Below, piece after piece: positions 25,222 to 43,888 of a DNA stretch of 64,000 nt. Under the pieces are notes generated by a model that made no database searches, had not been told where the DNA came from, and saw only the letters and a program-made list of their open reading frames with translations. The position numbers were made by a program, and so were the translations under genes. This DNA comes from Cryomorpha ignava (GTDB lineage Bacteria; Bacteroidota; Bacteroidia; Flavobacteriales_D; Cryomorphaceae). Where the stretch lies: positions 62,001 to 126,000 of the forward strand of contig NZ_JAAGVY010000009.1 in the NCBI RefSeq assembly GCF_010686655.1. The letters run 5' to 3'. How positions within the stretch are numbered: the first letter of the stretch is position 1; every line of letters starts with the position of its first letter.

Positions 25222-26004
25222 ATGAAAAAATTTACACTACTCTTCCTATTTCTACCCTTATTCGCCTCAGCGCAAACAATCCCAAATGGTAACTTTGAAT
25301 CGTGGATTTGGGTGGGATGGACTGAGCATTTTGAATCTTGGACTTCAGAAAATACTGAGGACTACAATATTGTAAGTGTGGACTTTGACTCTTACGAAGG
25401 TGAAACTGCCATGCGGGTTACAGCTCAACCTAACGGATTGGGTGATTATGGAGAAGCATACAACCTGTTTGAAATAGACGCCATTCCGGCTGCTTTGAAT
25501 TTCTATGCCAAAACCGAAGTAGCGTTTGGCGGAACGTCAGTTGAAATCACTTTCCTGAATCTGGATGTCGAAGTCTATTCAGAAATATGGTTTGGCACTG
25601 AAAATTGGGAAGAATATACCTTGGTAAGCATTCCATTAGTCCAAATAGAGCCTGTAATAACTCATGCCAAAATAAAAGTAATAGCGGAGGTGGGCGACCT
25701 CGTAGCCGGCACAGCCTGGATATCTGTAGATGCGATGGAGTTTGGAGAGCCACTAAGTGTAAAGAAAACGGAAATGAACACATTTAGAATTTACCCTAAC
25801 CCCGTAAGCGAAAATCTCACCATACAATCTATAAGTGGTTCATTGGGAAATTTGAAAATTACTGACGCCCTGGGTAAAATTGTGATAGAGAAACAGGTTC
25901 AGGAAAACCAAACGACAATTGGTATTCAAAATCTGGCTGCCGGAGTTTATATGATAAGCAGTGATAAAGGTAATCTGAAGGCTTCCAGGTTTATGGTAAA
26001 ATAA
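25222..26004 (+). CDS. Secreted T9SS protein, first of a tandem pair
   Basis: 260 aa. A signal peptide (1-18, LFASAQ) is followed by a single beta-sandwich-like region that opens IPNGNFESWIWVGW (19-32), a pattern seen in carbohydrate-binding-like modules. The C-terminal 75 residues (FRIYPNPVSENLTI ... RFMVK) form a type A T9SS sorting domain. No catalytic motif is seen. The next gene is a paralogue 65 bp downstream with almost the same first 40 residues, so the pair arose by duplication. A surface binding role is an inference. Confidence 0.82.
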   Translation: MKKFTLLFLFLPLFASAQTIPNGNFESWIWVGWTEHFESWTSENTEDYNIVSVDFDSYEGETAMRVTAQPNGLGDYGEAYNLFEIDAIPAALNFYAKTEVAFGGTSVEITFLNLDVEVYSEIWFGTENWEEYTLVSIPLVQIEPVITHAKIKVIAEVGDLVAGTAWISVDAMEFGEPLSVKKTEMNTFRIYPNPVSENLTIQSISGSLGNLKITDALGKIVIEKQVQENQTTIGIQNLAAGVYMISSDKGNLKASRFMVK

Positions 26005-26069
26005 GAATCACTTCTATTATTAGCAACCGCCTCTTCCCTTTCGCCATCATATAATTAAAGAAAAACATC

Positions 26070-26861
26070 ATGAAAAAATTTACACTAATCTTCCTATTTC
26101 TCCCATTATTCGCCACAGCGCAAACAGTCCCAAATGGCAACTTTGAAAGCTGGTTTTGGGTAGGATGGTCTGAAAATCCCGAATTTTGGGTAACCGATAA
26201 TACGGAATTAGGGCCGACAGTAACTAAGGATTTCGATTCTTACGAAGGTGAAATTGCCATGCGGGTTACGGCACAGCCTACGAGTTTGGGTAGTTATGGC
26301 GAAGCAAATACGCTTATCTCACTCACCGAAGTTGCTACAGCCTTAAACTTTTACGCTAAAAGTGAAGTTGAAAATGGCAGTGTTGCCGTGAATGTAACCT
26401 TTCTAAACGGCGAGACTGAAGTTTATACCGTACACTGGTTCGGAAATGAGAACATGGAAGAATATACGCTTGTTTCAGTTCCTTTAAGTCAGGTGCTGCC
26501 CCCTCCAGGAATAGTTACTCATGCACGCATCAGCGTAAGCGCAGAATTTGCCGATTTGATAGGTGGTACAGCGTGGATATCTGTCGATGCGATGGAATTT
26601 GGGGAACCGCTACTGGTAAAGGAGAACGAATTAAATTCTTTTAAAATCTATCCAAATCCCACAAGTGATGTGCTAAACCTTCAAACAGAAGCTAGTGTAG
26701 AATCTGTGGACATCTTCAATATCACAGGCGAAAAGATTCGATCTCTAAATGCACCTGAAATTGAAAAGCCTATTGATGTTTCTGCGCTAAGCAAAGGAGT
26801 CTATTTGATTAGATTTAATACTGCAACGTCGAGTTTTGTAAAGCGGATGGTAATTGAATAG
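26070..26861 (+). CDS. Secreted T9SS protein, second of a tandem pair
   Basis: 263 aa, paralogous to the preceding gene: the same signal peptide, the same NGNFESWFWVGW opening, the same middle features (YEGEIAMRVTAQP, GTAWISVDAMEFGEPL). The sorting domain (FKIYPNPTSDVLNL ... FVKRMVIE) has diverged strongly from its partner. The 5' leaders share an AACATCATG start context. Different cargo partners or attachment sites for the two proteins are possible but not shown. Confidence 0.82.
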   Translation: MKKFTLIFLFLPLFATAQTVPNGNFESWFWVGWSENPEFWVTDNTELGPTVTKDFDSYEGEIAMRVTAQPTSLGSYGEANTLISLTEVATALNFYAKSEVENGSVAVNVTFLNGETEVYTVHWFGNENMEEYTLVSVPLSQVLPPPGIVTHARISVSAEFADLIGGTAWISVDAMEFGEPLLVKENELNSFKIYPNPTSDVLNLQTEASVESVDIFNITGEKIRSLNAPEIEKPIDVSALSKGVYLIRFNTATSSFVKRMVIE

Positions 26862-27660: not shown

Positions 27661-28092
27661 TCAATTATTCTTTCTCAAATAAACAGATTTGATGTATGCA
27701 CCCGGAGCAAGAACCGGCAGGTCACTAAGTTTATAATCCTTAATATTTCGAGTGCAAATAATACTAATTTCACTGGAATCAAGAGCAGAGTAATACTGCA
27801 TTGCATCTTCAAAGTCCTTGAATTTAGAATTGAGAGCCGTTAAAATCGATTCTTTTTTCATATCAATTACATCGACTATTGTCAATAATTCTCGAAGTTT
27901 ATCAGTTACCTTTTTGTGGCTTCCAACCTTTCTCAAAACATAGTAAACATTGCTAATAATTACTGGGGATACAAATCCCTTTAGTTTACCTGAACTACAT
28001 AAAGAAAGAATTTTATCAGCAGAATCTGAGAAAGGGACTCTTCCTGCAAACGAATCCAAAAGAACATCTGAATCAATTAGGACTTTATCCAT
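27661..28092 (-). CDS. PIN-domain toxin (VapC-like)
   Basis: 143 aa. The PIN fold opening VLIDSDVLLDSFAGR supplies Asp7 and Asp9; a later acidic residue in FKDFEDAMQYYSA and Cys-Thr-Arg-Asn-x3-Asp near the end complete the expected metal site. PIN toxins are ribonucleases. Its start overlaps the end of the upstream DUF6364 gene by 8 bp, the usual coupling of a toxin-antitoxin pair. Confidence 0.87.
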   Translation of the reverse strand: MDKVLIDSDVLLDSFAGRVPFSDSADKILSLCSSGKLKGFVSPVIISNVYYVLRKVGSHKKVTDKLRELLTIVDVIDMKKESILTALNSKFKDFEDAMQYYSALDSSEISIICTRNIKDYKLSDLPVLAPGAYIKSVYLRKNN

Positions 28093-28342
28093 TTTTTAGA
28101 TATTTCTCGGTCAACGCCTCGGTTAAAGCCGCTTTATAATCGAAATTATCCGGAAGTTTAAATGATCCACTTATTGATTTAACTACGGGCGTAATTTCAA
28201 TTTCGTCATGAACCTCATCAATTGTTATTGTCTTCAGGTAGTTTTCTATTAAACTTGAAAGGCTTCTACCTTGGCTTTTAGCGTAGCGTTTTGCCTTTTC
28301 AATAACAGACTTCTCTAAGGTCAGTGTTAGTTTTGTACTCAT
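28085..28342 (-). CDS. DUF6364-type antitoxin
   Basis: 85 aa. The N-terminal half (KLTLTLEKSVIEKAKRYAKSQ, then GRSLSSLIENYL) is a ribbon-helix-helix DNA-binding pattern as in DUF6364 proteins. The C-terminal half (SGSFKLPDNFDYKAALTEAL) likely wraps the partner PIN toxin. It should repress its own operon. A -7-like box (TAATTTTG, minus strand, 28414-28407) lies upstream. Confidence 0.85.
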   Translation of the reverse strand: MSTKLTLTLEKSVIEKAKRYAKSQGRSLSSLIENYLKTITIDEVHDEIEITPVVKSISGSFKLPDNFDYKAALTEALTEKYLKNG

Positions 28343-31796: not shown

Positions 31797-33143
31797 ATGA
31801 TTAAAAATTTACTTTTTTCAACAGGAATCGTAGCAGCATTGACATGCTTTTCTGCTGTAGATTCTAACGCACAAATGACTGAAGGATTTGAAGATGGCTT
31901 TTTGCCACCTTGCTGGACTCAAATAGATGCGGATGGTGATGGTCAAGGTTGGTTTCAATACAACGCAGCTGGTTCAGCTTACGAAGGAGCAATGTCAGCG
32001 GCATCGGCTTCTTGGAATCAAGCAATTCTTACACCAGACAACTATTTGGTTACACCACAGTTAACAATTGGTGCTGGTGAATTACTTTCATATTATGTTT
32101 CTGCTCAAGATCCAGCTTACCCAGATGAAAACTATAGTGTTTTGGTTTCTACATCGGGAAATGAAGAAGCCGATTTTACGGACGAATTATTGGTAGAACT
32201 AACAGACTCAGTTTGGACATTGAGAACGATTGACATGTCAGCTTATGAAGGTCAGGATATTTATATCGCGTTCCGTCATTATGATGTAACAGATAATTTT
32301 TACATGAAACTAGACAATGTTACCCTTCCTGGTGTTTTCACAAATGTGTGTGTAGTAGATCCAGTTCTTCCAGTAGTTTTACTTGAAGGTGCTGAAAGCT
32401 TTGAAGCTGATACGGTAAACTTTCCTGATTGCTGGCAAACTATCGATGCAGATGGAGATGGTAATTCTTGGAATTTACTTCCTGCTGCGAACCTGGCATT
32501 TGATGGTGTGGTAGCAGCGAGATCGGAGTCTTACATTAACCCTCCAGGAGCTGGAGCTATAACTCCTGACAATTATTTGATAACTCCTTTATTGGACATT
32601 GTAGATGGAGACTCACTATATTACGTTGTAAGAGCAATAAGCGCAAATTTTCCTGCTGAAAACTACTCAGTACTCGTTTCTACAACTGGAACTGAAATTA
32701 GCGACTTTTCTGACGAAGTGTTAACTGAAGTTCTTGAATCTGCAGCTTATGAAGGTCGATCTGTTGACTTGAGTGGTTATGCCGGAGAATCAATTTATAT
32801 TGCATTCCGTCATCATGATGTAACAGATCAGTTCGCTTTCCTAATAGACGCTATCTATCTACCAGGAGTTAATTGTATCCCAGATGCAGTTACAGAATTA
32901 GAAAAAGTTGAGTCAAACCTTTTCCCTAACCCTGCAACTAACAACTTGAACATAACTTCATCTCTTGAAGGTGCTGCTACAGTTCGAGTGTTTGATGCAA
33001 TAGGACGCATAGTTTTAGAGAATAATGTAAACCTTTCGCAGGCTACGTTTACTCAAAACATTTCATCGTTAGAAAATGGTATTTATACAATTCAAATCAG
33101 CACAACTGATAAAGTTGCGACGCAGCGATTTGTAAAACAATAA
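31797..33143 (+). CDS. Secreted protein with two choice-of-anchor J domains and T9SS sorting domain
   Basis: 448 aa. A signal peptide (1-25) is followed by two repeats of a cleaved-adhesin/choice-of-anchor J module (about 28-180 and 195-360). Each has FEDGFLPPCW or SFEADTVNFPDCW, then IDADGDG, LTPDNYLVTP and YIAFRHYDVTD. The sorting domain (NLFPNPATNNLNI ... RFVKQ) is nearly identical to that of the next gene. Such modules occur in surface adhesins and gingipain-associated proteins. The IDADGDG segments look like Ca2+-binding loops. Confidence 0.88.
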   Translation: MIKNLLFSTGIVAALTCFSAVDSNAQMTEGFEDGFLPPCWTQIDADGDGQGWFQYNAAGSAYEGAMSAASASWNQAILTPDNYLVTPQLTIGAGELLSYYVSAQDPAYPDENYSVLVSTSGNEEADFTDELLVELTDSVWTLRTIDMSAYEGQDIYIAFRHYDVTDNFYMKLDNVTLPGVFTNVCVVDPVLPVVLLEGAESFEADTVNFPDCWQTIDADGDGNSWNLLPAANLAFDGVVAARSESYINPPGAGAITPDNYLITPLLDIVDGDSLYYVVRAISANFPAENYSVLVSTTGTEISDFSDEVLTEVLESAAYEGRSVDLSGYAGESIYIAFRHHDVTDQFAFLIDAIYLPGVNCIPDAVTELEKVESNLFPNPATNNLNITSSLEGAATVRVFDAIGRIVLENNVNLSQATFTQNISSLENGIYTIQISTTDKVATQRFVKQ

Positions 33144-33168
33144 TTGATTGATTAATTCTCAATTAGAG

Positions 33169-33199
33169 AAAAGCGGAACTTCGGTTCCGCTTTTTTTTT
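33169..33199 (+). terminator. Terminator, copy 1
   Basis: AAAAGCGGAAC-TTCG-GTTCCGCTTTT, a perfect 11-bp stem with a UUCG tetraloop, then T9. It is identical to the hairpin after the next gene. Confidence 0.95.
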
Positions 33200-33342
33200 G
33201 GCTTTATAAATCCGTAAAGTCGCATTTTATTTTTTCTATTTAACATATCTCGAAGCCACAATACTTCCCGCATATCATGTGATTTGCTCACTCTCTGGTT
33301 CAAAGATTTTATAAGGAAACGAACGATTCTTGTGAGAATTGC

Positions 33343-33350
33343 TAAATTTG
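33343..33350 (+). promoter_or_regulatory. -7 box of the second choice-of-anchor J gene
   Basis: TAAATTTG, a full TAnnTTTG match, 41 bp before the start codon. No TTG is at the expected spacing. Confidence 0.35.
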
Positions 33351-33391
33351 TTTAAATAACTTTTATTCAAACATTTTTAAACAACAAGCAG

Positions 33392-34624
33392 ATGATTAAA
33401 AATTTACTTTTTGCCGGATTAACATCGTTAATTACGGTTACAGCAAGTGCTCAGTGTATGGACTGGGTTGATCCAGCCCCTCCGGAAGCGTATTTGAGCT
33501 TTGGTGATGTGCCATGTACAGGCCAATCACGAGAAATAACTGGTTTCGAAGTGTATAAGTCTGAGGCTTACATATTAGCAAATGTTCAGATAGGCGATAA
33601 TTTTACTTTCAGCATGTGTAACGGCCCTGGCGCTGGAACATGGGTTCCTGAATTTACAGTTATAGCTCCGTCAGATGCAGTTGATAACTTTGGAGCCGGT
33701 GATGGCGATGGTTGCTCAATTACCTGGACAGCGTCAGAAGCCGGGATTTACAAAATCGTAATAAACGAAGCTGGAAATTGCGGAGTAGCTGGTGCTGTTG
33801 ATGGCGGATTTCCTAAAATTACTACCAATAGTAGTGGCGTAGCTTGTCCGGAATTTCTTGATGGTGCCGAAAGTTTTGAAACAGCGGGTGGAGCGCTACC
33901 GGCTTGCTGGCAAGCAATTGATGCAGATGGTGATGAACAGAACTGGACAATAGTGACCAATGATGATGGAAATTTCGGTCTGGATGGTGCCAGTGCTATT
34001 GGTTCATTTTCTTATACAGGCCCTGCGGGACCTCTAACGCCAGACAACTATCTTATTACTCCTCAAGTTACTTTGAGCGAAAATGAATCACTCTATTATG
34101 CCGTTAGATCACTAAACAGCAATTATTCTGAAGAAGAATATTCTGTATTGGTATCAACAACCGGTACCGATATCGCTGATTTTACTGATGAAGTGTTTGC
34201 AGACAATCTGGAGTACGTAAACCAATGGCAGGCAAGAACTGTAGATCTTAGCGCTTATGACAATCAAACCATCTATTTGGCCTTCAGACATTTTGGTGTA
34301 ACTGACCTTGTTGGATTTGTAATTGATGCAGTGAAACTGCCTGGCACTGTGAACTGTAATCCAGATGCAGTTACAGAACTTGATAAAGTTGAGTCAAATC
34401 TTTTCCCTAACCCTGCCACTGACAATGTGAACATTACTTCATCTCTACAAGGTGCAGCGACAGTTCGTGTGTTTGATGCTATAGGTCGAGTTGTTTTAGA
34501 GAATACTGTTAACCTTTCGCAAGCTACATTTACTCAAAACATCTCTACTTTAGATAATGGAATTTATACAATTCAAATTAGCACAACTGATAAAGTTGCT
34601 ACCCAGCGATTTGTTAAACAATAA
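33392..34624 (+). CDS. Secreted protein with one choice-of-anchor J domain and T9SS sorting domain
   Basis: 410 aa, partial paralogue of the preceding gene. After the signal peptide (1-21), residues 22-150 form a different, Cys-containing beta domain (PCTGQSREITGFEVY, MCNGPGAGTW). One choice-of-anchor J domain follows (about 157-320, SFETAGGALPACW, IDADGDE, LTPDNYLITP). The sorting domain differs from the neighbour's at only a handful of positions. Domain shuffling at the N-terminus plus a shared C-terminus suggests recombination between the two genes. Confidence 0.87.
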   Translation: MIKNLLFAGLTSLITVTASAQCMDWVDPAPPEAYLSFGDVPCTGQSREITGFEVYKSEAYILANVQIGDNFTFSMCNGPGAGTWVPEFTVIAPSDAVDNFGAGDGDGCSITWTASEAGIYKIVINEAGNCGVAGAVDGGFPKITTNSSGVACPEFLDGAESFETAGGALPACWQAIDADGDEQNWTIVTNDDGNFGLDGASAIGSFSYTGPAGPLTPDNYLITPQVTLSENESLYYAVRSLNSNYSEEEYSVLVSTTGTDIADFTDEVFADNLEYVNQWQARTVDLSAYDNQTIYLAFRHFGVTDLVGFVIDAVKLPGTVNCNPDAVTELDKVESNLFPNPATDNVNITSSLQGAATVRVFDAIGRVVLENTVNLSQATFTQNISTLDNGIYTIQISTTDKVATQRFVKQ

Positions 34625-34744: not shown

Positions 34745-36121
34745 ATGCTGCACTACAATACAGACGATACCATTTGCGCTCTCTCCACTCCGCCCGGAAT
34801 GGGAGCACTCGCCATAATCAGAGTGTCGGGAGGTGAATCTTTTAAGATCATGAATAAAGTCTTTAGCAAAGATTTAAGTTCTGCGCAAGGCAATACCATT
34901 CATTTTGGCCGCATTACCGATGGAGATGAGCTTATAGACGAAGTGCTGGTGTCAGTTTTCAGAGCGCCACGCTCCTTTACCGGCGAGGAAAGTGTTGAGT
35001 TGAGTTGCCACGGATCTGAATACATTCAATCGCGTATTTTGCAGCTTCTGCTCTCAAATGGTTGCCGCATGGCTCAGCCCGGCGAGTTTAGTCTGCGCGC
35101 TTTCGCGAATGGAAAAGTTGACCTCAGCCAGGCCGAAGCTATTGCAGATCTTATCGCCTCATCTACCTCTGCCGCCCACAAACTCGCAATGAACCAAATG
35201 CGTGGTGGATTTTCAAAAAAGATAAATGCTCTCCGCGAAAAGCTAATAAATTTCGCCTCTCTCATTGAGCTTGAGCTAGACTTTAGCGAAGAAGATGTGG
35301 AATTTGCAAACCGCGACGAACTTACGGCCCTAGTTTCCGGAATTGATACCATGGTAACGGGATTGATGGATAGCTTTGCCACCGGAAATGCGATCAAAAA
35401 CGGAGTGCCAGTCGCCATTCTCGGCGCTCCCAATATGGGTAAAAGCACCTTGCTCAATGCTTTACTTGAAGATGAGCGTGCCATTGTATCGCATATTCCC
35501 GGTACCACCCGCGATACCATTGAAGACGAGATGATTATTGACGGAGTCCGGTTTCGGTTCACCGATACTGCGGGCATTCGCGAAACCACCGATGAAATTG
35601 AGACCATTGGCATTTCACGAGCATTTGAAAAAGCGGGTAAATCTGCGGTTGTGATTTATCTTTTTGATGCGGCAACCAGCACTACTTCAGAAATTGCAGA
35701 TGAACTGGAAAACCTGCGCCAGAAAGTAGGATTGGAAGTGAACATAATCCTTGTTGGGAATAAAATTGATAAGGTAGAAGGCAAGACAGTTGCATCTGGA
35801 AAGTTTGAGAATGTGCTTTACATTTCTGCAAAACAAGGAACCGGATTGACTGAATTGAAAACCAGGCTTCTAGCTATAACTAAAACCTTGAGCACTGAGG
35901 GGAATGATATTGTAGTCAGCAATATCCGTCATTTCGAAGCATTATCTAAAGCCCACGAAGCGCTTACTTCGGTATTGGCTGGCATTGATTCGGACATTAC
36001 CAGCGATTTTCTGGCAATGGATATTCGTAGAGGGTTGTTTCACTTGGGTGAGATTACTGGGGAGATTACTACGGAAGATTTACTTGGGAATATATTTTCT
36101 AAGTTTTGCATTGGGAAGTAA
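34745..36121 (+). CDS. mnmE: tRNA modification GTPase MnmE
   Basis: 458 aa. N-terminal tetrahydrofolate-binding domain (TPPGMGALAIIRVSG, 15-29), helical domain, G domain with G1 GAPNMGKST (227-235) and IPGTTRDT, and the C-terminal CIGK that carries the catalytic Cys. With MnmG it makes the (carboxymethyl)aminomethyl modification of wobble uridine in tRNA. TACCTTTG 6 bp before the ATG looks like a -7 box, so the transcript may have almost no leader. A hairpin terminator follows. Confidence 0.97.
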   Translation: MLHYNTDDTICALSTPPGMGALAIIRVSGGESFKIMNKVFSKDLSSAQGNTIHFGRITDGDELIDEVLVSVFRAPRSFTGEESVELSCHGSEYIQSRILQLLLSNGCRMAQPGEFSLRAFANGKVDLSQAEAIADLIASSTSAAHKLAMNQMRGGFSKKINALREKLINFASLIELELDFSEEDVEFANRDELTALVSGIDTMVTGLMDSFATGNAIKNGVPVAILGAPNMGKSTLLNALLEDERAIVSHIPGTTRDTIEDEMIIDGVRFRFTDTAGIRETTDEIETIGISRAFEKAGKSAVVIYLFDAATSTTSEIADELENLRQKVGLEVNIILVGNKIDKVEGKTVASGKFENVLYISAKQGTGLTELKTRLLAITKTLSTEGNDIVVSNIRHFEALSKAHEALTSVLAGIDSDITSDFLAMDIRRGLFHLGEITGEITTEDLLGNIFSKFCIGK

Positions 36122-36130
36122 GTGAGACAG

Positions 36131-36149
36131 AAAAAATCTGCGATTTTTT
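36131..36149 (+). terminator. mnmE terminator
   Basis: AAAAAATC-TGC-GATTTTTT, a perfect 8-bp stem with a T run. Confidence 0.75.
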
Positions 36150-36162
36150 CGTAGTCGAACTC

Positions 36163-36191
36163 ATCCCGAAGCGCGCCAGCGATATCGGGAT
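36163..36191. repeat. Palindromic intergenic repeat
   Basis: ATCCCGA ... TCGGGAT arms around a GC-rich centre (GCGCGCCAGCG), of the REP-like type common between Bacteroidota genes. Confidence 0.4.
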
Positions 36192-36274
36192 TCTTGCAAG
36201 CCAAGAATAATGGATATTACGTTTTATTCACCAATACTCAATGAATCGAATATTCTTCAAATATTAACCAGTAA

Positions 36275-36481
36275 TTACGAAGCATAAATCCTCTCCTGGA
36301 ACCCAATGAACGCTTCCCTAATATGCTTAATGCTTCCGAGTTCATTCTTTGCATCAGAAACTGATTTATACCTTAATTCCAATATTTTGGGCAGTTTGTC
36401 ATCATCAAGCTCAGAAAAACCCACGGCAACATATTGATCCAATACGAAATTTAGAAAGCCCTGCTGTTTTGGATTATAGTC
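36275..36481 (-). pseudogene. C-terminal remnant of a type I restriction subunit HsdR
   Basis: About 68 residues read YNPKQQGFLNFVLDQYV, then GFSELDDDKLPKILELRY, then IKHIREAFIGFQERIY. This is the characteristic extreme C-terminus of HsdR. The frame continues upstream to 36628, but those residues are antisense to another gene remnant and do not resemble HsdR. Helicase and nuclease domains are absent, as are hsdM and hsdS. The junction with foreign sequence is near 36482-36487. Confidence 0.75.
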
Positions 36482-36486
36482 TCCCA

Positions 36487-36573
36487 ACTGAAGGTGAGTT
36501 TGTAAGCGCATGGAAATTGCGTTTAAACATGAGCCAAGAAAATTTAATACAGATTGCGCAAAGTAAATACTAA
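36487..36573 (+). pseudogene. C-terminal remnant of the gene upstream of abiEii
   Basis: A 28-residue fragment (EGEFVSAWKLRLNMSQENL, then IQIAQSKY) ends at TAA, which overlaps the ATG of the AbiEii remnant. By position it should be the end of the cognate antitoxin, but the piece is too short to assign a family. Its start coincides with the HsdR junction. Confidence 0.45.
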
Positions 36574-36900
36574 ATGATCTTACATCGAGAAATCGAAGAA
36601 AAAGCTCAAGAATGGAAAGTACCGCCACGGTGGAAAAAGATTACGTATTGGGACATTTTTTATCTGTATTTCTTGAACAGTACAAGGATAAGTTGGTATT
36701 CGAAGGGGGAACTTGTTTAGGAAAGTGCTACATCGAAAATTATCGTTTTTCTGAAGATTTGGATTTTGCCGCTTTGGAAAACACATTTGTGCTGAGCAAA
36801 AAAATATTAAGAAAATAGTTAAGACTATTGAGAAAAAAACTGGAATTCAATTTTTCGTAGCAGCCATCAACAATGGAGGCAAGGTTGCATTTATGGCTTG
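36574..36900 (+). pseudogene. Frameshifted AbiEii-type nucleotidyltransferase toxin remnant
   Basis: Starting ATG ATC TTA, the first frame gives MILHREIEEKAQEWKVPP. The next frame (from about 36630) gives TVEKDYVLGHFLSV, LVFEGGTCLGKCYIEN and YRFSEDLDFAAL. These are the hallmarks of the AbiEii/AbiGii toxin family (GG-T and the D-L-D nucleotidyltransferase motif). A second shift near 36815 joins a further fragment (KIVKTIEKKTGIQF). At least two frameshifts and a missing C-terminal half mean it is inactive. AbiE is a type IV toxin-antitoxin phage-defence system. Confidence 0.78.
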
Positions 36901-36931
36901 AATCTACCTTATCATAACTTTTCTATTTTTG
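36898..36931 (+). promoter_or_regulatory. Candidate promoter of the SNF2 helicase gene
   Basis: TTG (36898-36900), 23 bp, then TATTTTTG (36924-36931), matching TAnnTTTG; start codon 28 bp downstream. Confidence 0.4.
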
Positions 36932-36958
36932 TGATTGAAGTGATTTAACTACTTACCT

Positions 36959-39787
36959 ATGTCCACACAACTCATATTCGACCCCGTAGCGGCAGGATCC
37001 CTTAAATGTCCTTTTACCTTTTTTATAAAACTACTATCGGGAAAAAACACAACATTCCAACACGAGCCGTATTCCGTGAAAAACCTGCAAGCTATTTATT
37101 CGAAGGATTACGACCAGAATACCCTAAAAACTTTGGCTTTATTAACGGTGGACGAACTCAATAAAGAAGAAAAAAAGTATGCCTCCCATTATCGGCAATT
37201 AAAACCAAGAAGAGATTTGGAGGATTATATCGACCAATATTTATCGGAATATTACTTCAATTCCTTCCGTCAAGTTTTTCATATCCTCTCGGCAAACCAA
37301 CAGCTCTATCACAGAATAAAAATTAGCGAAAAACGGTATAGAAACCTACCGTGCAATTTTGATACTTCTGAGGTTCCCGAACTATCCTTTAAGATTGTGC
37401 GAAACGGAAAAAGACTTTCCATTGCCACTTTTTTTCAACTGAACAATGAGAGTTACGAGGCCGCAGAGGTCAACCGGTTCCAGTTTTTAATTTGTTGGAA
37501 CAATACTTATTACATGCTAAAAAAATCCGATTGGAAAGTATTGGAAGACATTGCCGAAGCCGGGACGTTCGACCATGATACCTACCTTGAAAAATACAAC
37601 AAGAAACTGAAAAAATATCCGTTGGATCTCGGGGGGGCTTTTAGGGAGGAAACTCGGGAAGCAAGCCCCCAAGCGTTGATTCAGATTTCTGAATTGGGCG
37701 GCGACATGTTGATGTTTTTACCCCGTTGGGATTATGACGGCACTATTGTGGAAGACGATAAAGATATATTTACGATTTATGAGGGAGAAAAGCGGATTAC
37801 TTATAAACGTGATAAAAGAGCAGAACGGGAAACTCTGGAATTCCTGCAAAATGCCCATCCTAATTTTAAAGGCCAAACCATCTTTTTCCTGAAGTTCAAC
37901 GAAGCTTCCAAAAAGAACTGGTTTTATAATTTTTACCACGAGCAGCTCAAGGATAATTTCTCCGTAACCGGTATGGATATGCTGGGCTATTTTCGGTATT
38001 CGAACCACAAAGCACAATCAAACCTTAGCATTACGAAAACATTGGATAACACGGTAGCCGCCCAATTTACAACCTATTTCGGTGCCGAAAAAATAGACAC
38101 AAAAACCCTTCAAAAAGCTCTAAGCCAAGGAGATCATTTTGTTTTATTGAAGGACAATTCCCTTGGCATACTTTCGGAAGAGTGGTTAAAAAAGTATGCT
38201 TTATTTGTAAAAAACGCCAAAATCGATAAAGATGAGATCCAATTTGCCAAATGGCTTCCACTTATTTCGGGTCCAGAACATCATCAGGCTGCCCTTAGTA
38301 TCGTTTTTCCCAAAAACTGGTTGGAAGAATGGAACCGTTGGAATCAGTCGGAAGACCAACTTTATGTAAAACCGGATTCCATCAAGGCCAAGTTAAGAAA
38401 TTACCAACAAAAGGGCTACGAATGGTTAAACTTGATGGCCGAAATCAATGCGGGAACCCTACTGGCAGATGACATGGGTTTGGGGAAAACCTTGCAGTCT
38501 ATCTCTGCGATGGCTTACTGGCTAAAAAGCAATCCAGAATCCAAGTTCTTAATCGTCTCTCCGGCTTCGCTTATCTACAATTGGAAAAATGAATTTGAAA
38601 AGTTTGCGCCAGATTTCAACCTCTTCATCTATCACGGCGCCCAAAGGGATATTCACGATTTTTTAAAAGGCGACAACCAGGTGTTGATCACCTCGTATGC
38701 TTTGATCAGGAACGATAACGAACTTTTCTCAAACATGCTATGGGAAGCGATCGTGTTGGATGAAGGCCATCACATTAAAAATTACACTTCCCAACAAACC
38801 CAGGCCGTACTGAAGCTCAACGGAAAACGAAGGATTATCCTCAACGGGACGCCCATTATGAATAATATCACCGATTTATTCCCGCAATTACATTTTCTAT
38901 TGCCCCAGCTCTTTCCTTCCCAAAAGCATTTTAAGGAACAATTCGAGAAACCCCTCCAACATAAAAAAATAGAAGGACAAATGGATGCCCTCAAAAAAAT
39001 GACCAGTCCATTTATGTTAAGACGGACCAAGGAAACCGCTGCCCCCGACCTGCCCCAAAAAACAGAATCCGTGCTTTGGTGCGAGATGGAAGATGAACAG
39101 CGTTCGGCTTATGAAGACATAAAAAGCCATGTAAGGAACAATATTATGATCCAAATTAAAGACAAGGGATTAAACAAGGCCAAATTGGGTGTTTTGCAAG
39201 GGATCACCAAACTCCGGCAGGTTTGCAGTTCGCCCCGACTTTTAAAGAAAGAATCGGATTTTAGTTCCAAACCTTCCATAAAAATAGATAATTTAATCGA
39301 AACCCTGACTTCGGATCTAGCCAATCACAAGGTTCTTGTTTTCTCTCAATTTTTAGGCACAATGGATCTATTGTCCGAAGCCTTTGAAAAAAACGAGATC
39401 ACTTTTCGCCGGTTTAGCGGAAAAACCACTGCAAAAGAGCGCATCCGCTTGGTTTCTGAATTTCAAGAAAAGGATTCGGACATACAGGTGTTCTTATTGA
39501 GCTTGATGGCCGGTAATTCCGGGATAAACCTGACCAATGCCAATTATGTTTTTCTGATGGAGCCTTGGTGGAATAAAGCCGTTCAGCAACAAGCTATCGA
39601 CCGGACCCACCGGATTGGCCAGGACCAAAAAGTCTTTGCCTACAACATGATCTGTAAGGACACCATTGAAGAAAAAATCATGGCTTTACAGGAGAGAAAG
39701 CAGATACTCTCGGATGAGGTCATTGCGGACGATGGCAATTTCGTAAAAAACTTGACCGCCGACGATATTGCGTTTTTGTTTGAATAA
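36959..39787 (+). CDS. SNF2-family helicase/ATPase
   Basis: 942 aa. A long N-terminal region (1-470) of no clear family precedes a SNF2 core: Walker A DDMGLGKT (504-511), DEGH (601-604), then motif III-like NGTPIMN and the C-terminal helicase motifs QFLGTMDLL, LLSLMAGNSGINLT and QAIDRTHRIGQ. These proteins translocate on duplex DNA. Its setting, between a degraded type I R-M/AbiE locus and a HigBA module, suggests an accessory or defence region, although many Bacteroidota have such a helicase without known partners. No nuclease domain is visible in the N-terminal half. Confidence 0.9.
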   Translation: MSTQLIFDPVAAGSLKCPFTFFIKLLSGKNTTFQHEPYSVKNLQAIYSKDYDQNTLKTLALLTVDELNKEEKKYASHYRQLKPRRDLEDYIDQYLSEYYFNSFRQVFHILSANQQLYHRIKISEKRYRNLPCNFDTSEVPELSFKIVRNGKRLSIATFFQLNNESYEAAEVNRFQFLICWNNTYYMLKKSDWKVLEDIAEAGTFDHDTYLEKYNKKLKKYPLDLGGAFREETREASPQALIQISELGGDMLMFLPRWDYDGTIVEDDKDIFTIYEGEKRITYKRDKRAERETLEFLQNAHPNFKGQTIFFLKFNEASKKNWFYNFYHEQLKDNFSVTGMDMLGYFRYSNHKAQSNLSITKTLDNTVAAQFTTYFGAEKIDTKTLQKALSQGDHFVLLKDNSLGILSEEWLKKYALFVKNAKIDKDEIQFAKWLPLISGPEHHQAALSIVFPKNWLEEWNRWNQSEDQLYVKPDSIKAKLRNYQQKGYEWLNLMAEINAGTLLADDMGLGKTLQSISAMAYWLKSNPESKFLIVSPASLIYNWKNEFEKFAPDFNLFIYHGAQRDIHDFLKGDNQVLITSYALIRNDNELFSNMLWEAIVLDEGHHIKNYTSQQTQAVLKLNGKRRIILNGTPIMNNITDLFPQLHFLLPQLFPSQKHFKEQFEKPLQHKKIEGQMDALKKMTSPFMLRRTKETAAPDLPQKTESVLWCEMEDEQRSAYEDIKSHVRNNIMIQIKDKGLNKAKLGVLQGITKLRQVCSSPRLLKKESDFSSKPSIKIDNLIETLTSDLANHKVLVFSQFLGTMDLLSEAFEKNEITFRRFSGKTTAKERIRLVSEFQEKDSDIQVFLLSLMAGNSGINLTNANYVFLMEPWWNKAVQQQAIDRTHRIGQDQKVFAYNMICKDTIEEKIMALQERKQILSDEVIADDGNFVKNLTADDIAFLFE

Positions 39788-39889
39788 TACCGATTCGACA
39801 AATAATATAGTCCAATTTTGACTTCGCCTCATTGTACTATTTATTTGTTACTCTCGGCATTATTCAAACTCCATTTTAAATCCATTTTT

Positions 39890-39940
39890 GTCAGGTTTTA
39901 ACCTTACTATTAATTATTAATTGTCAGGCTTTAACCTGAC
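39890..39940. repeat. Paired palindromes, copy A
   Basis: GTCAGGTTTTAACCTTAC (39890-39907), 15 nt of AT-rich spacer, then GTCAGGCTTTAACCTGAC (39923-39940). Each unit is an inverted repeat of about 18 bp. The same two-unit, 15-nt arrangement occurs at 51600-51650. Confidence 0.75.
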
Positions 39941-40026
39941 TTTGCATTTGTCATATAACCTTATATTTCGTCATGATAATTAGTTCTATTTTTCAACATA
40001 TAATCCCATATTACAAAACTATTTGC

Positions 40027-40034
40027 TATTTTTG
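40027..40034 (+). promoter_or_regulatory. -7 box of the higBA operon
   Basis: TATTTTTG, 16 bp before the higB start, a full TAnnTTTG match. Confidence 0.4.
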
Positions 40035-40049
40035 CAGTAAACTGGATAA

Positions 40050-40346
40050 ATGCGGATAGTTACCTTTAAACGGATCAAGGAGTTTTCTGAAAAGCATGCC
40101 AATTCGAAAACTGCACTTCACGTATGGTATCATTTCGTATCAGAAAAAGAATGGGAAAATCTCAACGAACTAAAACGGGATTTCAATAATGTTGATTACG
40201 TTGGCAACCACCGTTTCGTCTTCAATATTAATGGAAATGCTTACATGCTAGTTGCAATTATCTCCTTCAATGCAAAGAAAGTGTACATCCGATTTATTGG
40301 AACACATTCAGAATACGATAAGATTCAAGACATTAAAAACATTTGA
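40050..40346 (+). CDS. higB: HigB-family mRNA interferase toxin
   Basis: 98 aa, matching the HigB_toxin family (MRIVTFKRIKEFSEKHANSK, HVWYHFVSEKEWENLNELKR, NGNAYMLVAII, VYIRFIGTHSEYDKI). These toxins cleave mRNA on the ribosome. Toxin gene first, antitoxin second is the typical hig order. The stop codon is 2 bp before the downstream ATG. Confidence 0.9.
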   Translation: MRIVTFKRIKEFSEKHANSKTALHVWYHFVSEKEWENLNELKRDFNNVDYVGNHRFVFNINGNAYMLVAIISFNAKKVYIRFIGTHSEYDKIQDIKNI

Positions 40347-40348
40347 CG

Positions 40349-40708
40349 ATGATCAAAACCGAAAAAGAATATCAAACAATAGTAGAAAGGGTTGAAACCC
40401 TTCTTCAAAATGCGGACAACATCGAAAACCGTGATACCAAAGGCTATATCGAGTTGAATCTCTTGTCAGATCTCGTAGCAGATTATGAGGAGCGCACCTA
40501 TCAAGTGCTAAAACCCGCACTTGTAGATGTGATAAAATTGCGCATGGCCGAGATGGGTTTAAATCAAAAACGGCTGTCAGAACTTCTTGGAGTAAGCACA
40601 TCACGCGTAAGCGAATACCTTAACGGAAAGAGCGAGCCTACCTTAAAAGTAGCGCGCGAAATGAGTATTAAACTCGGGATCGATGCTTCAATTGTTTTGG
40701 GGGTATGA
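40349..40708 (+). CDS. higA: HigA-family antitoxin (XRE helix-turn-helix)
   Basis: 119 aa from ATG 40349; a TTG 6 bp earlier overlaps higB and is an alternative. The N-terminal half is helical. The C-terminal XRE domain reads MGLNQKRLSELLGVSTSRVSE (about 69-89) and YLNGKSEPTLKVAREM. It should neutralise HigB and repress the operon. Its last 87 bp recur in a decayed copy at 42808-42894. Confidence 0.9.
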   Translation: MIKTEKEYQTIVERVETLLQNADNIENRDTKGYIELNLLSDLVADYEERTYQVLKPALVDVIKLRMAEMGLNQKRLSELLGVSTSRVSEYLNGKSEPTLKVAREMSIKLGIDASIVLGV

Positions 40709-40812
40709 GGCTTTAAACTTCTCTTGCTGATACGCTAACCCAGTCCACTGAAAAGATTATCCATAAGAATGCTTTCTGTGTTTTGTTTGGGGAAGTAAGC
40801 TTTTCGGCAATT

Positions 40813-42447
40813 TTAAAGCTTAATAACCTTCTTTTCTAAAGTCCCCTTTTCAGTCAAAACCTGAATAATATAAGTCCCACTGGGCAGATCACTCAATGCC
40901 AACCTGAAAATATTTTGATTTTGAAAATAAGAAGCCAATTCTTCCCCAAGAATTGAATAAACCCGAACCTGAGATCCAAGCAATGAATTTTTCAGGTGAA
41001 TGCTGATATCTTGATTAAAAGGGTTTGGATAAACTTGAATATCGTTTTCACTTAAAGCATTTTCTGCATTCAATGCACCCTCCTGATAGACTCTTACATA
41101 ATCTACAACCATAGCGCTCTCTGTAAAGTTTTGATTTACTGGATTTTGCATAGCCACATTGAGGAGAATATACTGATCAGCTATATAAGGCCAATTGTCC
41201 ATGTTTTGATTTTCGGGCTGGTAGGTATAGTAGATATTGCCATCAACGCTAAAGCTGATTAATTCTGGTGTCCACACCATGCCATACGTATGAAAAGTAT
41301 TTGAAACATCGTTTATATAGAGGCCACCATGATTTTCGGTTGCACCAAATGAAGATGGCGTGTGAAGTGCCGCCTGAACATAATTTTGGTTGGTTCCCCA
41401 ATGTTCCATAACATCAATCTCACCACATGCAGGCCAAAATGTTTGGCCGTATTGATCAGACCAAAATGCCCCTGGTTCTATTATGTTTTTACCCAATGTC
41501 CAAATAGCCGGCCATGTGCCGTAACCGAAAGGTAACTTAGCTCTTACTTCCATTTTACCATAAGTAAAGGCAAATTTCGAGTTGAGTCGTGCCGATGTAA
41601 AATTTCTACCAAGACCCTGGTCTGTATAATCTTCTCTTATGGCCACAATGTTTAGAAATCCATCTTCTACAAACGCGTTTTCTTCCCTATCGGTATAATG
41701 CTGAAGCTCATTATTGTACCAGCCACCTGCTGTGGGTATTTGTGTTTGGTAATGCCATTTGTCTGCATCGATTTCCGATCCATCAAACTCGTCAGACCAA
41801 ACCAGATGATTGTAGATATTACCTGTAGGATCATTTGTCAGATCAATTTCACCATCGTAATAAAAATCATCAAAGTAGGCTTGAACAAGATCAGCATTGT
41901 TCTCGCCATTAACTTGTAAAATCACCCGGTTAAAATCAGTGCGATTAACCGGAATATCTGAGTTCATATTCGCATTAATAAAAGCATCATTTTCAAAATC
42001 AAAACTCACTTCTTGCCATTGATCGAGCTGGACCTCCTTTATTATCTCGGTTTGCGTGGCCCAAGGTTGCGAAATAGCAGCATTTTGAAGTTTTAGAGAT
42101 ACTTGATTATTCTGAGAACCACTTATGGTTGCCGAAGGAATAAAAATCTTGAGAGTAAAACTGTGATTTTCGCTTAAATCAAAGCTGGCCGGAAGAGTGA
42201 ATCCTACGTGCGCATATTGCCCACCGAGATCTCGGTACCGCATAACCCTCGATGATAAATTTACACCTTCCTGAAACGGATTGCCCCAGGCGGTATCTGC
42301 TTGTGCTTCTGATGCATACCAACTTTCAATAGTTCCGTTGCCTTCAAAATCATCCTGTATAGTCAAGGGCTGACCATAAGTACAATTCACCGCTACACAA
42401 AGGAGGATTGTGAAAGAAAGGTTTAATTTACTCAATACCATATTCAT
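40813..42447 (-). CDS. Secreted GH16 beta-glucanase (laminarinase-like) with T9SS sorting domain
   Basis: 544 aa. A signal peptide (1-25) and a beta-sandwich carbohydrate-binding-like region (about 28-205) precede a GH16 catalytic domain (LVWSDEFDGSEIDADKWHY, 216-234). The catalytic signature E343-I-D-V-M-E348 (nucleophile and acid/base) is intact, and GTWPAIWTLG is present. The end (IQVYPNPFNQDISI ... KKVIKL) is a type A T9SS sorting domain. It should hydrolyse beta-1,3- or mixed-linkage glucans such as laminarin outside the cell. No SusCD pair is adjacent, so it is not part of a polysaccharide utilisation locus in this window. Confidence 0.94.
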   Translation of the reverse strand: MNMVLSKLNLSFTILLCVAVNCTYGQPLTIQDDFEGNGTIESWYASEAQADTAWGNPFQEGVNLSSRVMRYRDLGGQYAHVGFTLPASFDLSENHSFTLKIFIPSATISGSQNNQVSLKLQNAAISQPWATQTEIIKEVQLDQWQEVSFDFENDAFINANMNSDIPVNRTDFNRVILQVNGENNADLVQAYFDDFYYDGEIDLTNDPTGNIYNHLVWSDEFDGSEIDADKWHYQTQIPTAGGWYNNELQHYTDREENAFVEDGFLNIVAIREDYTDQGLGRNFTSARLNSKFAFTYGKMEVRAKLPFGYGTWPAIWTLGKNIIEPGAFWSDQYGQTFWPACGEIDVMEHWGTNQNYVQAALHTPSSFGATENHGGLYINDVSNTFHTYGMVWTPELISFSVDGNIYYTYQPENQNMDNWPYIADQYILLNVAMQNPVNQNFTESAMVVDYVRVYQEGALNAENALSENDIQVYPNPFNQDISIHLKNSLLGSQVRVYSILGEELASYFQNQNIFRLALSDLPSGTYIIQVLTEKGTLEKKVIKL

Positions 42448-42807
42448 AAGCTATTCTTAGCAGTTTGGCTTTGTAAAATTTGGGCATCGCTTTTTATAGA
42501 TTCAAACTATCATTGCAAGAGCTATTGAAAGAGATTGGCAATGTTAGTTCCTAGCATAAAATTGAAAAAAGTCGGTTTTGATTTGTGCTAATGTACAAAC
42601 CCGAATTTGCATTAAGAAGTTATTACTCATCAATAAACCATTAAAATCTTGGAAAGCTGAGAACCTAAGTAATTAAATCATTTGAAATGTGTAGGCTCTA
42701 TTTCTGTAAATACTTAAAATAATCTATGCCGATTTAGCGGGTAAAATTTCAAAAACTTTAAAAGACGATTGACCAACTGTATATGCTCGGTCTCAGCAGC
42801 AAATATT

Positions 42808-42894
42808 CACGGAAAGAGCGAACCCACCTTAAAAATAGTGCGCGAAATGAGCATTAAACTCGAAATCGATGCTTCAATTGTTTTGGGGGTTTGA
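42808..42894 (+). pseudogene. Truncated copy of the higA 3' end
   Basis: About 87 bp closely matches the last 87 bp of higA (40622-40708), encoding GKSEPTLKIVREMSIKLEI, then DASIVLGV and stop. No start or upstream homology is visible. It is either a local duplication or the relic of a second HigA-type gene. Confidence 0.75.
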
Positions 42895-42975
42895 AGATAA
42901 ACTTTCTGTAAAATATCACCTTGTCCGAAGGCGCTACTGAAAATGTATCGAAATTGAGATCATTAAAATCCCCTA

Positions 42976-42996
42976 TCCATATTTGCTAAATATGGA
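42976..42996. promoter_or_regulatory. Palindromic operator of the parDE operon
   Basis: TCCATATTT-GCT-AAATATGGA, a perfect inverted repeat of 9-bp arms, 36 bp before the parD start. Position and symmetry fit an autoregulatory site for a ribbon-helix-helix antitoxin. Confidence 0.65.
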
Positions 42997-43032
42997 CATA
43001 TTATTTAAATTAGCATACTTAAAGATAAAGCA

Positions 43033-43269
43033 ATGAATATCAGTTTCACAAAAAAGCAAGTCGAGTATATTACCAGTCAGGTAGAATCGGGTGATTATCA
43101 AAACAATAGTGAAGTTATTCGCGAGGCACTCCGCTTACACCAAATATACCGGGATAAACTAATCGCCGATTTACAAACAGAGATTGAAAAAGGACTAAAT
43201 AGTGGCAATAGCCAACGATCTGTAAAAGACATTATTGAATCAAAACGCAAGTCAAGGAAAACAGCCTAA
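43033..43269 (+). CDS. parD: ParD-family antitoxin
   Basis: 78 aa. N-terminal ribbon-helix-helix (MNISFTKKQVEYITSQVESG, NNSEVIREALRLHQ), then a charged helix (LQTEIEKGLNSGNSQRSVKDI) that would bind the toxin. It overlaps parE by one base (ATGA). Confidence 0.9.
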   Translation: MNISFTKKQVEYITSQVESGDYQNNSEVIREALRLHQIYRDKLIADLQTEIEKGLNSGNSQRSVKDIIESKRKSRKTA

Positions 43270-43574
43270 TGACCAAAAAGATCCTCAACTCGTATATTCT
43301 TTCAAATAAGGCCGATTCTGATCTGGATGAAATCTTCGATTATACTTTTGATGAGCACGGCTTTAATCAAGCTGTGAAGTATTTATCCGACTTAGAAAGT
43401 CTCTTCTGGCAATTAGTAAAGAATCCAAAACTTGGAAGAGAAAGAAGAGACTTAAAAAATGAAATCCTCAGTATTACTGAACAAGGTCACACTGTCTTTT
43501 ATCGAATACATCAGGATTATATTCTAATCGTAAGAGTGTTGCATGGGAACAAGGATATTCCCAGATCCCTGTAA
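43269..43574 (+). CDS. parE: ParE-family toxin
   Basis: 101 aa, RelE/ParE fold: YILSNKADSDLDEIFDYTF, LGRERRDLKNEILSI and HTVFYRIHQDYILIVRVLHG. ParE toxins usually inhibit DNA gyrase. One-base overlap with parD indicates translational coupling. Confidence 0.9.
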   Translation: MTKKILNSYILSNKADSDLDEIFDYTFDEHGFNQAVKYLSDLESLFWQLVKNPKLGRERRDLKNEILSITEQGHTVFYRIHQDYILIVRVLHGNKDIPRSL

Positions 43575-43678
43575 ACTTTTCTGTGTTTTGCGAAATAGAG
43601 AATATTTTTAGAGAATCTTTAGCCTAAATTTGCTCAACAAAAACCCTTCATGCTTAAACTCAAATTCAGACTAAAACC

Positions 43679-43888
43679 CTAAACCCCACAACTCCCACTA
43701 CCCGTATTTTTCACCCCAAGTTTATTCAAAATATTTTGCAATAAACACCATTGGGTAAGCGACGACTGAAACAAATTAACGCCTACAAAAGCAGCAAGCC
43801 AAAGCCAGTTTATATTTACATACATGGCAAGGATTAAACTGATTATAATAAAACTACCTGCAATTCCGTGAATGATTCTATTATGCAT
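43679..43888 (-). CDS. DUF2892 small membrane protein
   Basis: 69 aa from ATG 43888 (an upstream ATG at 43915 would overlap the PII-like gene by 35 bp). Two membrane helices (GSFIIISLILAMYV and WLWLAAFVGVNLFQSS) are followed by a short Cys-containing tail (SGSCGV), the layout of DUF2892. Such proteins often accompany rhodanese or transport genes. It is the last gene of the efflux operon. Confidence 0.8.
   Translation of the reverse strand: MHNRIIHGIAGSFIIISLILAMYVNINWLWLAAFVGVNLFQSSLTQWCLLQNILNKLGVKNTGSGSCGV

Follow-up and report, generated by a model that had tools for sequence, protein, structure and literature searches.

Relics of two defence systems behind mnmE in Cryomorpha ignava and a proposed family of mnmE-docking islands in Bacteroidota

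How did broken pieces of a type I restriction gene and of an AbiE toxin-antitoxin pair come to meet directly behind mnmE in Cryomorpha ignava? The locus was analysed in a window of 64,000 nucleotides (C9:62001-126000), which belongs to a 149-contig draft genome of 5.0 Mb with 40% G+C; its features are listed in Table 1. A gap of 837 bp separates mnmE from an SNF2-type gene, which is followed by HigBA. An earlier note on this DNA had placed both neighbours beside the relics, and the domain search found them at 36959-39787 and 40050-40708, where they keep their reading frames. The SNF2-family helicase, which may or may not be a defence gene, was patchy in relatives (five of 40 genomes at 1e-30, its own included), and the best PADLOC matches of the protein, DpdE and ZorD, corresponded to helicase regions that are common to many families.

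Table 1. Features of the locus behind mnmE (window positions).
Feature	Position	Strand	Basis
mnmE (trmE/thdF), intact, 458 aa	34745-36121	+	Pfam MnmE_helical, TrmE_N
Proposed left attachment-site copy, the last 18 bp of mnmE, TTTTGCATTGGGAAGTAA	36104-36121	+	Pattern matching within the window and in other genomes
HsdR relic, ~70 C-terminal residues, with ~90% of the protein gone	36284-36487	-	Pfam, alignments to homologs
Junction of the HsdR and AbiEi relics (deletion inferred)	36487-36493		Meeting point of alignments
AbiEi antitoxin C-terminal relic, 27 residues and stop	36490-36573	+	PADLOC, alignments
AbiEii toxin N-terminal relic, two frames, ~81 of ~290 residues, recognisable to 36797	36574-36818	+	PADLOC, Pfam, alignments
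SNF2-family helicase, 942 aa, open frame	36959-39787	+	Domain search
HigBA-type toxin-antitoxin pair, open frames	40050-40708	+	PADLOC, Pfam
Proposed right attachment-site copy, degenerate direct repeat of the mnmE 3' end, 22/27; 18-mer at 40781-40798	40773-40799	+	Repeat search, genome comparison

Relics of HsdR and AbiE in the gap

The minus-strand open reading frame at 36275-36628 matched the final part of the Pfam profile EcoEI_R_C (PF08463; 4.3e-9), and the C-termini (approximately residues 745-831) of six intact HsdR proteins of 822-836 aa all aligned to the relic. Four of these homologs aligned over 36502-36284 with 59-66% identity, a fifth (L276) over 36550-36284 with 53% identity, and the HsdR encoded in the same genome over 36475-36284 with 48% identity. 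The profile match and the six alignments agree with the earlier reading of this piece as the last 68 residues of a type I restriction subunit. The HsdR protein of the same genome is intact and 47-48% identical to the relic, which means that no recent duplication of its gene gave rise to the relic. The relic resembles type I restriction-modification (R-M) systems of the EcoEI_R_C type in its C-terminal domain and differs from them in that about 8% of the subunit remains and neither hsdM nor hsdS lies beside it. In particular, the endonuclease and helicase domains are missing, with no credible HsdR homology beyond approximately 36487-36550, and no open frame of methylase or specificity-subunit size lies between mnmE and the SNF2-type gene.

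On the opposite strand, the 27 C-terminal residues of AbiEi at 36490-36570 showed 44-48% identity to three of four homologs and 35% identity to the fourth over a longer stretch (E-values of 1e-6 to 9e-6 across the four), and PADLOC matched AbiEi at 1.5e-5. AbiEii residues 19-81 (approximately) were found at 36618-36797 with 52-53% identity to five homologs and 43% to a sixth; PADLOC matched AbiEii at 1.6e-24, and Pfam also found it. The first 17 or so AbiEii residues lie at 36574-36624 in a different frame, in a short match that is weak alone (two of six homologs, E-values of 0.04 and 0.26). The antitoxin gene ends directly upstream of the toxin gene, whose start at 36574 is set by this weak piece, and the relic keeps the AbiEi-AbiEii order of the AbiE type IV toxin-antitoxin systems. 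It differs from these systems in being truncated and frame-broken and in having no complete toxin or antitoxin frame: the alignment to six homologs gave no credible homology past AbiEii residue ~81 of ~290, and a complete nucleotidyltransferase frame is absent.

The HsdR and AbiEi alignments meet at about 36487-36493, where the two divergent relics are both truncated on their 5' sides. The earlier note had described two broken pieces that meet head to head at 36482-36487, which lies within approximately 10 bases of the meeting point found here, and the orientation that it gave agrees with the alignments. It had also named AbiEii as the piece that abuts HsdR; an N-terminal part of AbiEii is indeed present, but the abutting piece is the C-terminus of AbiEi, which had been missed. 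Because both genes are cut on the 5' side at one point, one deletion would suffice to form the junction. Although a 149-contig draft could contain a junction that was made in assembly by joining two copies of a repeat, this explanation is very improbable here, since no near-identical second copy of either relic was found (best protein identity of 47% for HsdR and 42% for AbiEii) and the longest other DNA match of 36122-36958 covers 46 nt at 85% identity, directly behind mnmE. In this match, the first 46 nt after mnmE (window 36122-36167) resemble a stretch that also looks intergenic (G000:C40:15449-15494).

We compared the surroundings of close intact relatives of both relics by tblastn. The six neighbourhoods of close HsdR relatives (10-19 kb) showed a type I methylase match in five cases, a specificity-subunit match in four and AbiE in none; the eight neighbourhoods of close AbiEii relatives (5-18 kb) contained no hsd genes. 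The relics being cut at one point and facing apart, like divergent neighbours after an internal deletion, would also fit a single composite R-M/AbiE cassette that brought both in. We regard such a cassette as quite unlikely, as none of these 14 loci (5-19 kb) contained both systems and the examples with R-M or AbiE at the mnmE site, described below, hold one or the other. The comparison supports the view of the earlier note that two distinct defence systems were lost at this one site.

Islands behind mnmE in other Bacteroidota

The genomic island SGI1 of Salmonella is reported to dock at the last 18 bp of thdF (trmE, mnmE), to be flanked by 18-bp direct repeats and to form tandem arrays (PMC2297512); because of this use of the thdF end, a second copy of the mnmE end was sought. 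Among 40 genomes of the order, including that of C. ignava, mnmE was found in 34. The downstream sequence was read for 18 relatives, chosen mainly for long contigs (approximately 10 kb or more in 14, 1.4-4.1 kb in four); there was no genome of the same genus among those found for comparison. Four of the 18 contexts showed mobile or defence cargo. In G001, from the same family as Cryomorpha, mnmE is followed by an HTH protein, a tyrosine integrase, BT4734-like and DUF3987/PriCT_2 proteins and an Argonaute, with no right end of the island in about 40 kb. In G025, an integrase is followed by type I methylase, specificity and restriction subunits (HsdMSR), and the copies of the mnmE end lie 20.5 kb apart. 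G010 contains an intact AbiEi-AbiEii pair between two copies 2.17 kb apart, the rear one exact to the 18-mer pattern; its AbiEi was assigned by position and by tblastn to other AbiEi proteins, with Pfam giving a sub-threshold DUF6577 match only. In G024, copies 1.49 kb apart surround an HTH_3 protein and a ParE-like protein, the latter below the Pfam cut-off. The other 14 contexts, the genes of which were annotated in part, contained no integrase of the G001-type family and no second exact copy.

The 18-mer pattern matched 341 of 399 genomes in a search of the whole order. Among the matches listed (109 genomes), a second copy on the same strand within 60 kb was seen by eye in at least four (G114, G024, G099 and G334): the copies are 10 kb apart around a type I R-M system in G114, and 50 kb apart with an integrase and a type II methylase in G099. 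G010, G024, G114 and G334 have such copies, yet no integrase of the G001-type family in the stretch that was read. In G334 (C156:4132-4231, L162), two 18-mer copies follow mnmE only 82 bp apart, possibly as a collapsed island. When 50 mnmE-end loci were fetched regardless of cargo, eight had a member of the integrase family or an HTH neighbour within 1.2 kb (two of 29, the C. ignava locus being among the 29, and six of 21), counts that give no estimate of frequency: the six among the 21 come from two genera only (g57 and g59), one of these six (L140) shows only the HTH protein and a fragment, and the two sets share at least one genome.

The earlier note had proposed a test for hotspot behaviour and had pointed to the same site in relatives as the place to look for intact R-M or AbiE systems. 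Both were found there, in different genomes, and the relatives differ from each other instead of sharing identical pseudogenes, which bears out the hotspot. Beyond that note, the comparison suggests that the basis of the hotspot is the 3' end of mnmE as an integrase attachment site.

A seed alignment was made of the integrases of G001, G025, G099 and G195 (46-50% identity to the first), and one scan of named genomes gave 308 confirmed integrase relatives; the best 80 of the 308 were analysed, and other sites are possible among the remaining 228. In 77 of these 80 loci, a distance of 189-683 bp separates the end of mnmE from the integrase, which follows on the same strand; the remaining three (L207, L226 and L255) are cut by contig ends, and the contig of L207 starts with the 18-mer. 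The hosts include Winogradskyella, Aequorivita, Algoriphagus, Cyclobacterium, Sphingobacterium, Gynurincola, Sunxiuqinia, Fulvivirga and others. The most extreme pairs combine integrases that are 96-99.5% identical with mnmE proteins that are 50-55% identical (for example, 98% versus 51%). Among 2,775 pairs from 75 loci, the similarity of the integrases exceeded that of mnmE by over 10 points in 2,428 and the reverse held in 21, an imbalance that is favoured by the choice of the loci by integrase similarity. Near-identical integrases beside half-diverged mnmE genes indicate that the islands moved horizontally between distant hosts. Among the matches listed, the best integrase relatives in phage and plasmid records reached 51% and 43%, and one phage record besides fell in the 60-80% band.

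Eight protein clusters recurred in the 80 loci, all on the integrase strand and each named after one representative: an HTH protein before the integrase (72 of 80), the integrase (80), a protein matching DUF6617 (80), an unannotated protein of about 99 aa (68), HTH_17 (74), BT4734-like (74), DUF3987/PriCT_2 (73) and a Cro/C1-type HTH protein (65). All eight were present together in 53 loci, and 73 loci combine the integrase with the clusters of DUF6617, HTH_17, BT4734 and DUF3987. The cargo after this backbone is variable. In a view that spans about 7 kb past the integrase, 63 of the 80 loci have one or more of five clusters that were defined loosely and named after representatives, namely Argonaute (33 loci), type I methylase-like (11), Eco57I/MmeI-type methylase (11), ApeA (11) and type III methylase (7); the Argonaute of G001 was matched by tblastn in 29 loci. 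PADLOC, applied to one cargo protein per locus, returned its commonest Argonaute model in 28 of 73 loci and its commonest type I methylase model in 24, the Argonaute count being inflated by the 20 loci in which a later cargo gene was used (12 of these an Argonaute). We also observed the ApeA-like cluster directly before the Argonaute in L232, L233, L235, L237, L244, L249, L256, L257, L266 and L267, and a functional pairing of the two proteins is possible.

The ends of the islands were sought in 48 genomes, where the 18-mer pattern occurred 77 times (48 expected from mnmE itself) and its reversed control 11 times. In 11 genomes, another exact copy was seen within 60 kb of the first, on its contig and strand, and no such copy was seen in the other 37; on the opposite strand, none occurred within 60 kb. 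Nine of the 11 (all except G423 and G406) were read, a set that was chosen for a detectable second copy. In these nine, 17.6-43.3 kb separate the mnmE copy from the following one, and each contains the integrase as well as an Argonaute that lies between the copies and shares 45-48% identity with the Argonaute of G001. Type I R-M-like matches lie between the copies in five (G419, G403, G421, G416 and G415), with methylase, specificity and restriction matches together in the last four, of which G421 and G415 gave the strongest. G422, G420 and G417 contain the type III methylase cluster, and no methylase was recognised in G413. Contig C25 of G421 (Sphingobacterium lumbrici; L294-L296) has three mnmE-end copies on one strand, as would be left by two tandem islands.

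A worn repeat of the mnmE end and the proposed origin of the relics

In the window, 36104-36121 and 40781-40798 lie on the same strand, 4.68 kb apart, with the second copy after higBA. The latter has three mismatches to the mnmE end of its own genome (15/18); matches this good averaged 0.13 over 100 shuffles of the window and never numbered two. The repeat extends to 22 of 27 positions (36096-36122 and 40773-40799); the repeat search of the 8-kb region gave 29 families of direct repeats, this one included, and short two-copy families often arise by chance. Upon comparison of the 27-mer with both strands of a 0.43-Mb sample of the genome, the maximum among 857,908 positions was 19, and none reached 22/27. 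When the contexts of the 18 relatives were compared with their own mnmE ends, only G024 exceeded 19/27. Additionally, the sequence at 40781 scored 16/18 to TTTTGTATTGGGAAGTAA and TTTTGTATCGGGAAGTAA, forms known from right-hand copies elsewhere that were picked after the window repeat was known. At least 16/18 to these forms was reached at none of 858,304 positions in the genome sample, and 15/18 was reached within the window by 36104 and 40781 only. A loose search of the whole genome (degenerate 18-mer, up to two mismatches) gave 101 matches versus 63 in the reversed control, and a loose match of this kind was dropped as sufficient evidence; chance matches are common at such stringency, and the case rests on the closer matches and on the other genomes. 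A tRNA as the docking gene was dismissed, as there is no tRNA in the window.

The window locus is probably an eroded mnmE island that lost its integrase, its island identity being deduced from both relics, the junction, the repeat, the like cargo at the same site elsewhere and the integrase family that occurs there. The relics would have arrived as cargo of one or more integrase-driven islands, for which the final 18 bp of mnmE served as the docking point. Integration between attB (the mnmE end) and attP would spare mnmE and leave a second 18-bp copy at the far end of the island, and the copies at 36104-36121 and, worn, at 40781-40798 would be the old island ends. The integrase would then have been lost, a single deletion would have taken the 5' parts of hsdR and abiEi and all in between, and the AbiEii toxin would have decayed after this deletion. 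Toxin-antitoxin modules resist loss, and HigBA may have persisted at the right end for this reason. We infer the former island in the 4.68-kb stretch, the single-deletion junction and the order of these events.

Several observations speak against the island. No remnant of an integrase or of the backbone was found in 36122-43700 with proteins from the 80 integrase loci; one protein cluster matched this stretch below 0.01, a cargo cluster at the helicase part of the SNF2-type gene. The four integrase matches in the C. ignava genome are partial and distant, and all lie on contigs other than that of mnmE. The right repeat has two to three mismatches in 18, island-free relatives exist, and the G+C content is ordinary (0.392 in the proposed island versus 0.403 and 0.415 in the flanks, hardly different). 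The missing integrase, the imperfect repeat and the 14 of 18 contexts in the order that have neither a family integrase nor a second exact copy would also fit gene decay alone, with hsdR and abiE entering a permissive gap behind mnmE independently of each other, by illegitimate or homologous recombination, followed by a chance deletion that fused them, and with a coincidental repeat. This account is unlikely, however, because a repeat at this level of match is rarer than chance in this genome and sits just beyond the last gene of the cluster, and because the integrase family uses the mnmE site in the same order and family.

The sequence beyond the proposed right end of the eroded island contains further toxin-antitoxin genes. 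A second 3' remnant of higA lies at 42806-42894, with DNA 90% identical to 40620-40708 (83% over 29 residues), which indicates that another HigBA-type unit decayed there. A GH16 gene (40813-42447) sits between the two higA copies, and a ParDE pair with open frames (43033-43574) follows the remnant. With this higA remnant and the ParDE pair beyond it, the right boundary may be older or more complex. By eye, 43578-43590 weakly resembles the left half of the mnmE-end repeat.

Relation to known islands

In Gammaproteobacteria, islands at the trmE/mnmE end are known, some with defence cargo (PMC12016545, PMC8409611), and MGItrmE of Shewanella is reported to carry a type I R-M system (PMC12016545). 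The matching passages of PMC5704250 contain 'trmE' twice, both times for Gammaproteobacterial elements. Within Bacteroidota, the 10K genomic island of Riemerella anatipestifer is described with a tyrosine integrase and direct-repeat att sites and docks at tRNA-Arg (PMC6764341), whereas the family described here docks at mnmE. Among the papers listed by full-text searches, assessed by titles, term counts and the beginnings of abstracts, none presents mnmE-end islands in Bacteroidota; among the papers listed in one search that contain 'trmE', 'Bacteroidetes' also occurs in only one, which concerns SGI1, and PMC6907783 mentions neither trmE nor mnmE. We regard the window locus as a putative decayed member of the Bacteroidota family.

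The Bacteroidota islands share with SGI1 the docking at the mnmE end and the 18-bp direct repeats, and some of them share with MGItrmE a type I R-M system. They differ from both in belonging to another phylum and in their backbone of HTH proteins, integrase, DUF6617-type, BT4734-like and DUF3987/PriCT_2 proteins, often with an Argonaute. The window locus differs further from SGI1-type islands in having no integrase; it is most likely an eroded island, analogous to the SGI1 sites of Gammaproteobacteria. It appears likely that integrative elements of one family, spread across the Bacteroidota, dock at the 3' end of mnmE (its last 18 bp) in the manner of SGI1. They would share an integrase/primase-type backbone, usually an Argonaute, and a slot beside the backbone in which R-M and other defence systems are exchanged. 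This would make the mnmE end a phylum-wide turnstile for defence genes, and the window would represent a graveyard after the loss of the integrase.

This proposal gives a testable rule, by which defence genes of Bacteroidota are to be sought directly behind mnmE. It also links prokaryotic Argonautes and R-M systems with a single family of mobile elements that have readable ends, by which whole elements can be delimited, excised and tested. In addition, it suggests that mobile elements in two distant phyla have come to use the conserved FCIGK end of MnmE for docking.

Further features were observed in the window upstream of mnmE. A VapBC-like pair at 27661-28342 consists of a PIN_3 protein and a DUF6364 protein. 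Two tandem pairs of similar secreted proteins lie at 25222-26861 and 31797-34624; the first member of each contains Por_Secre_tail, 31797-33143 also contains Cleaved_Adhesin, and the second members were compared by eye.
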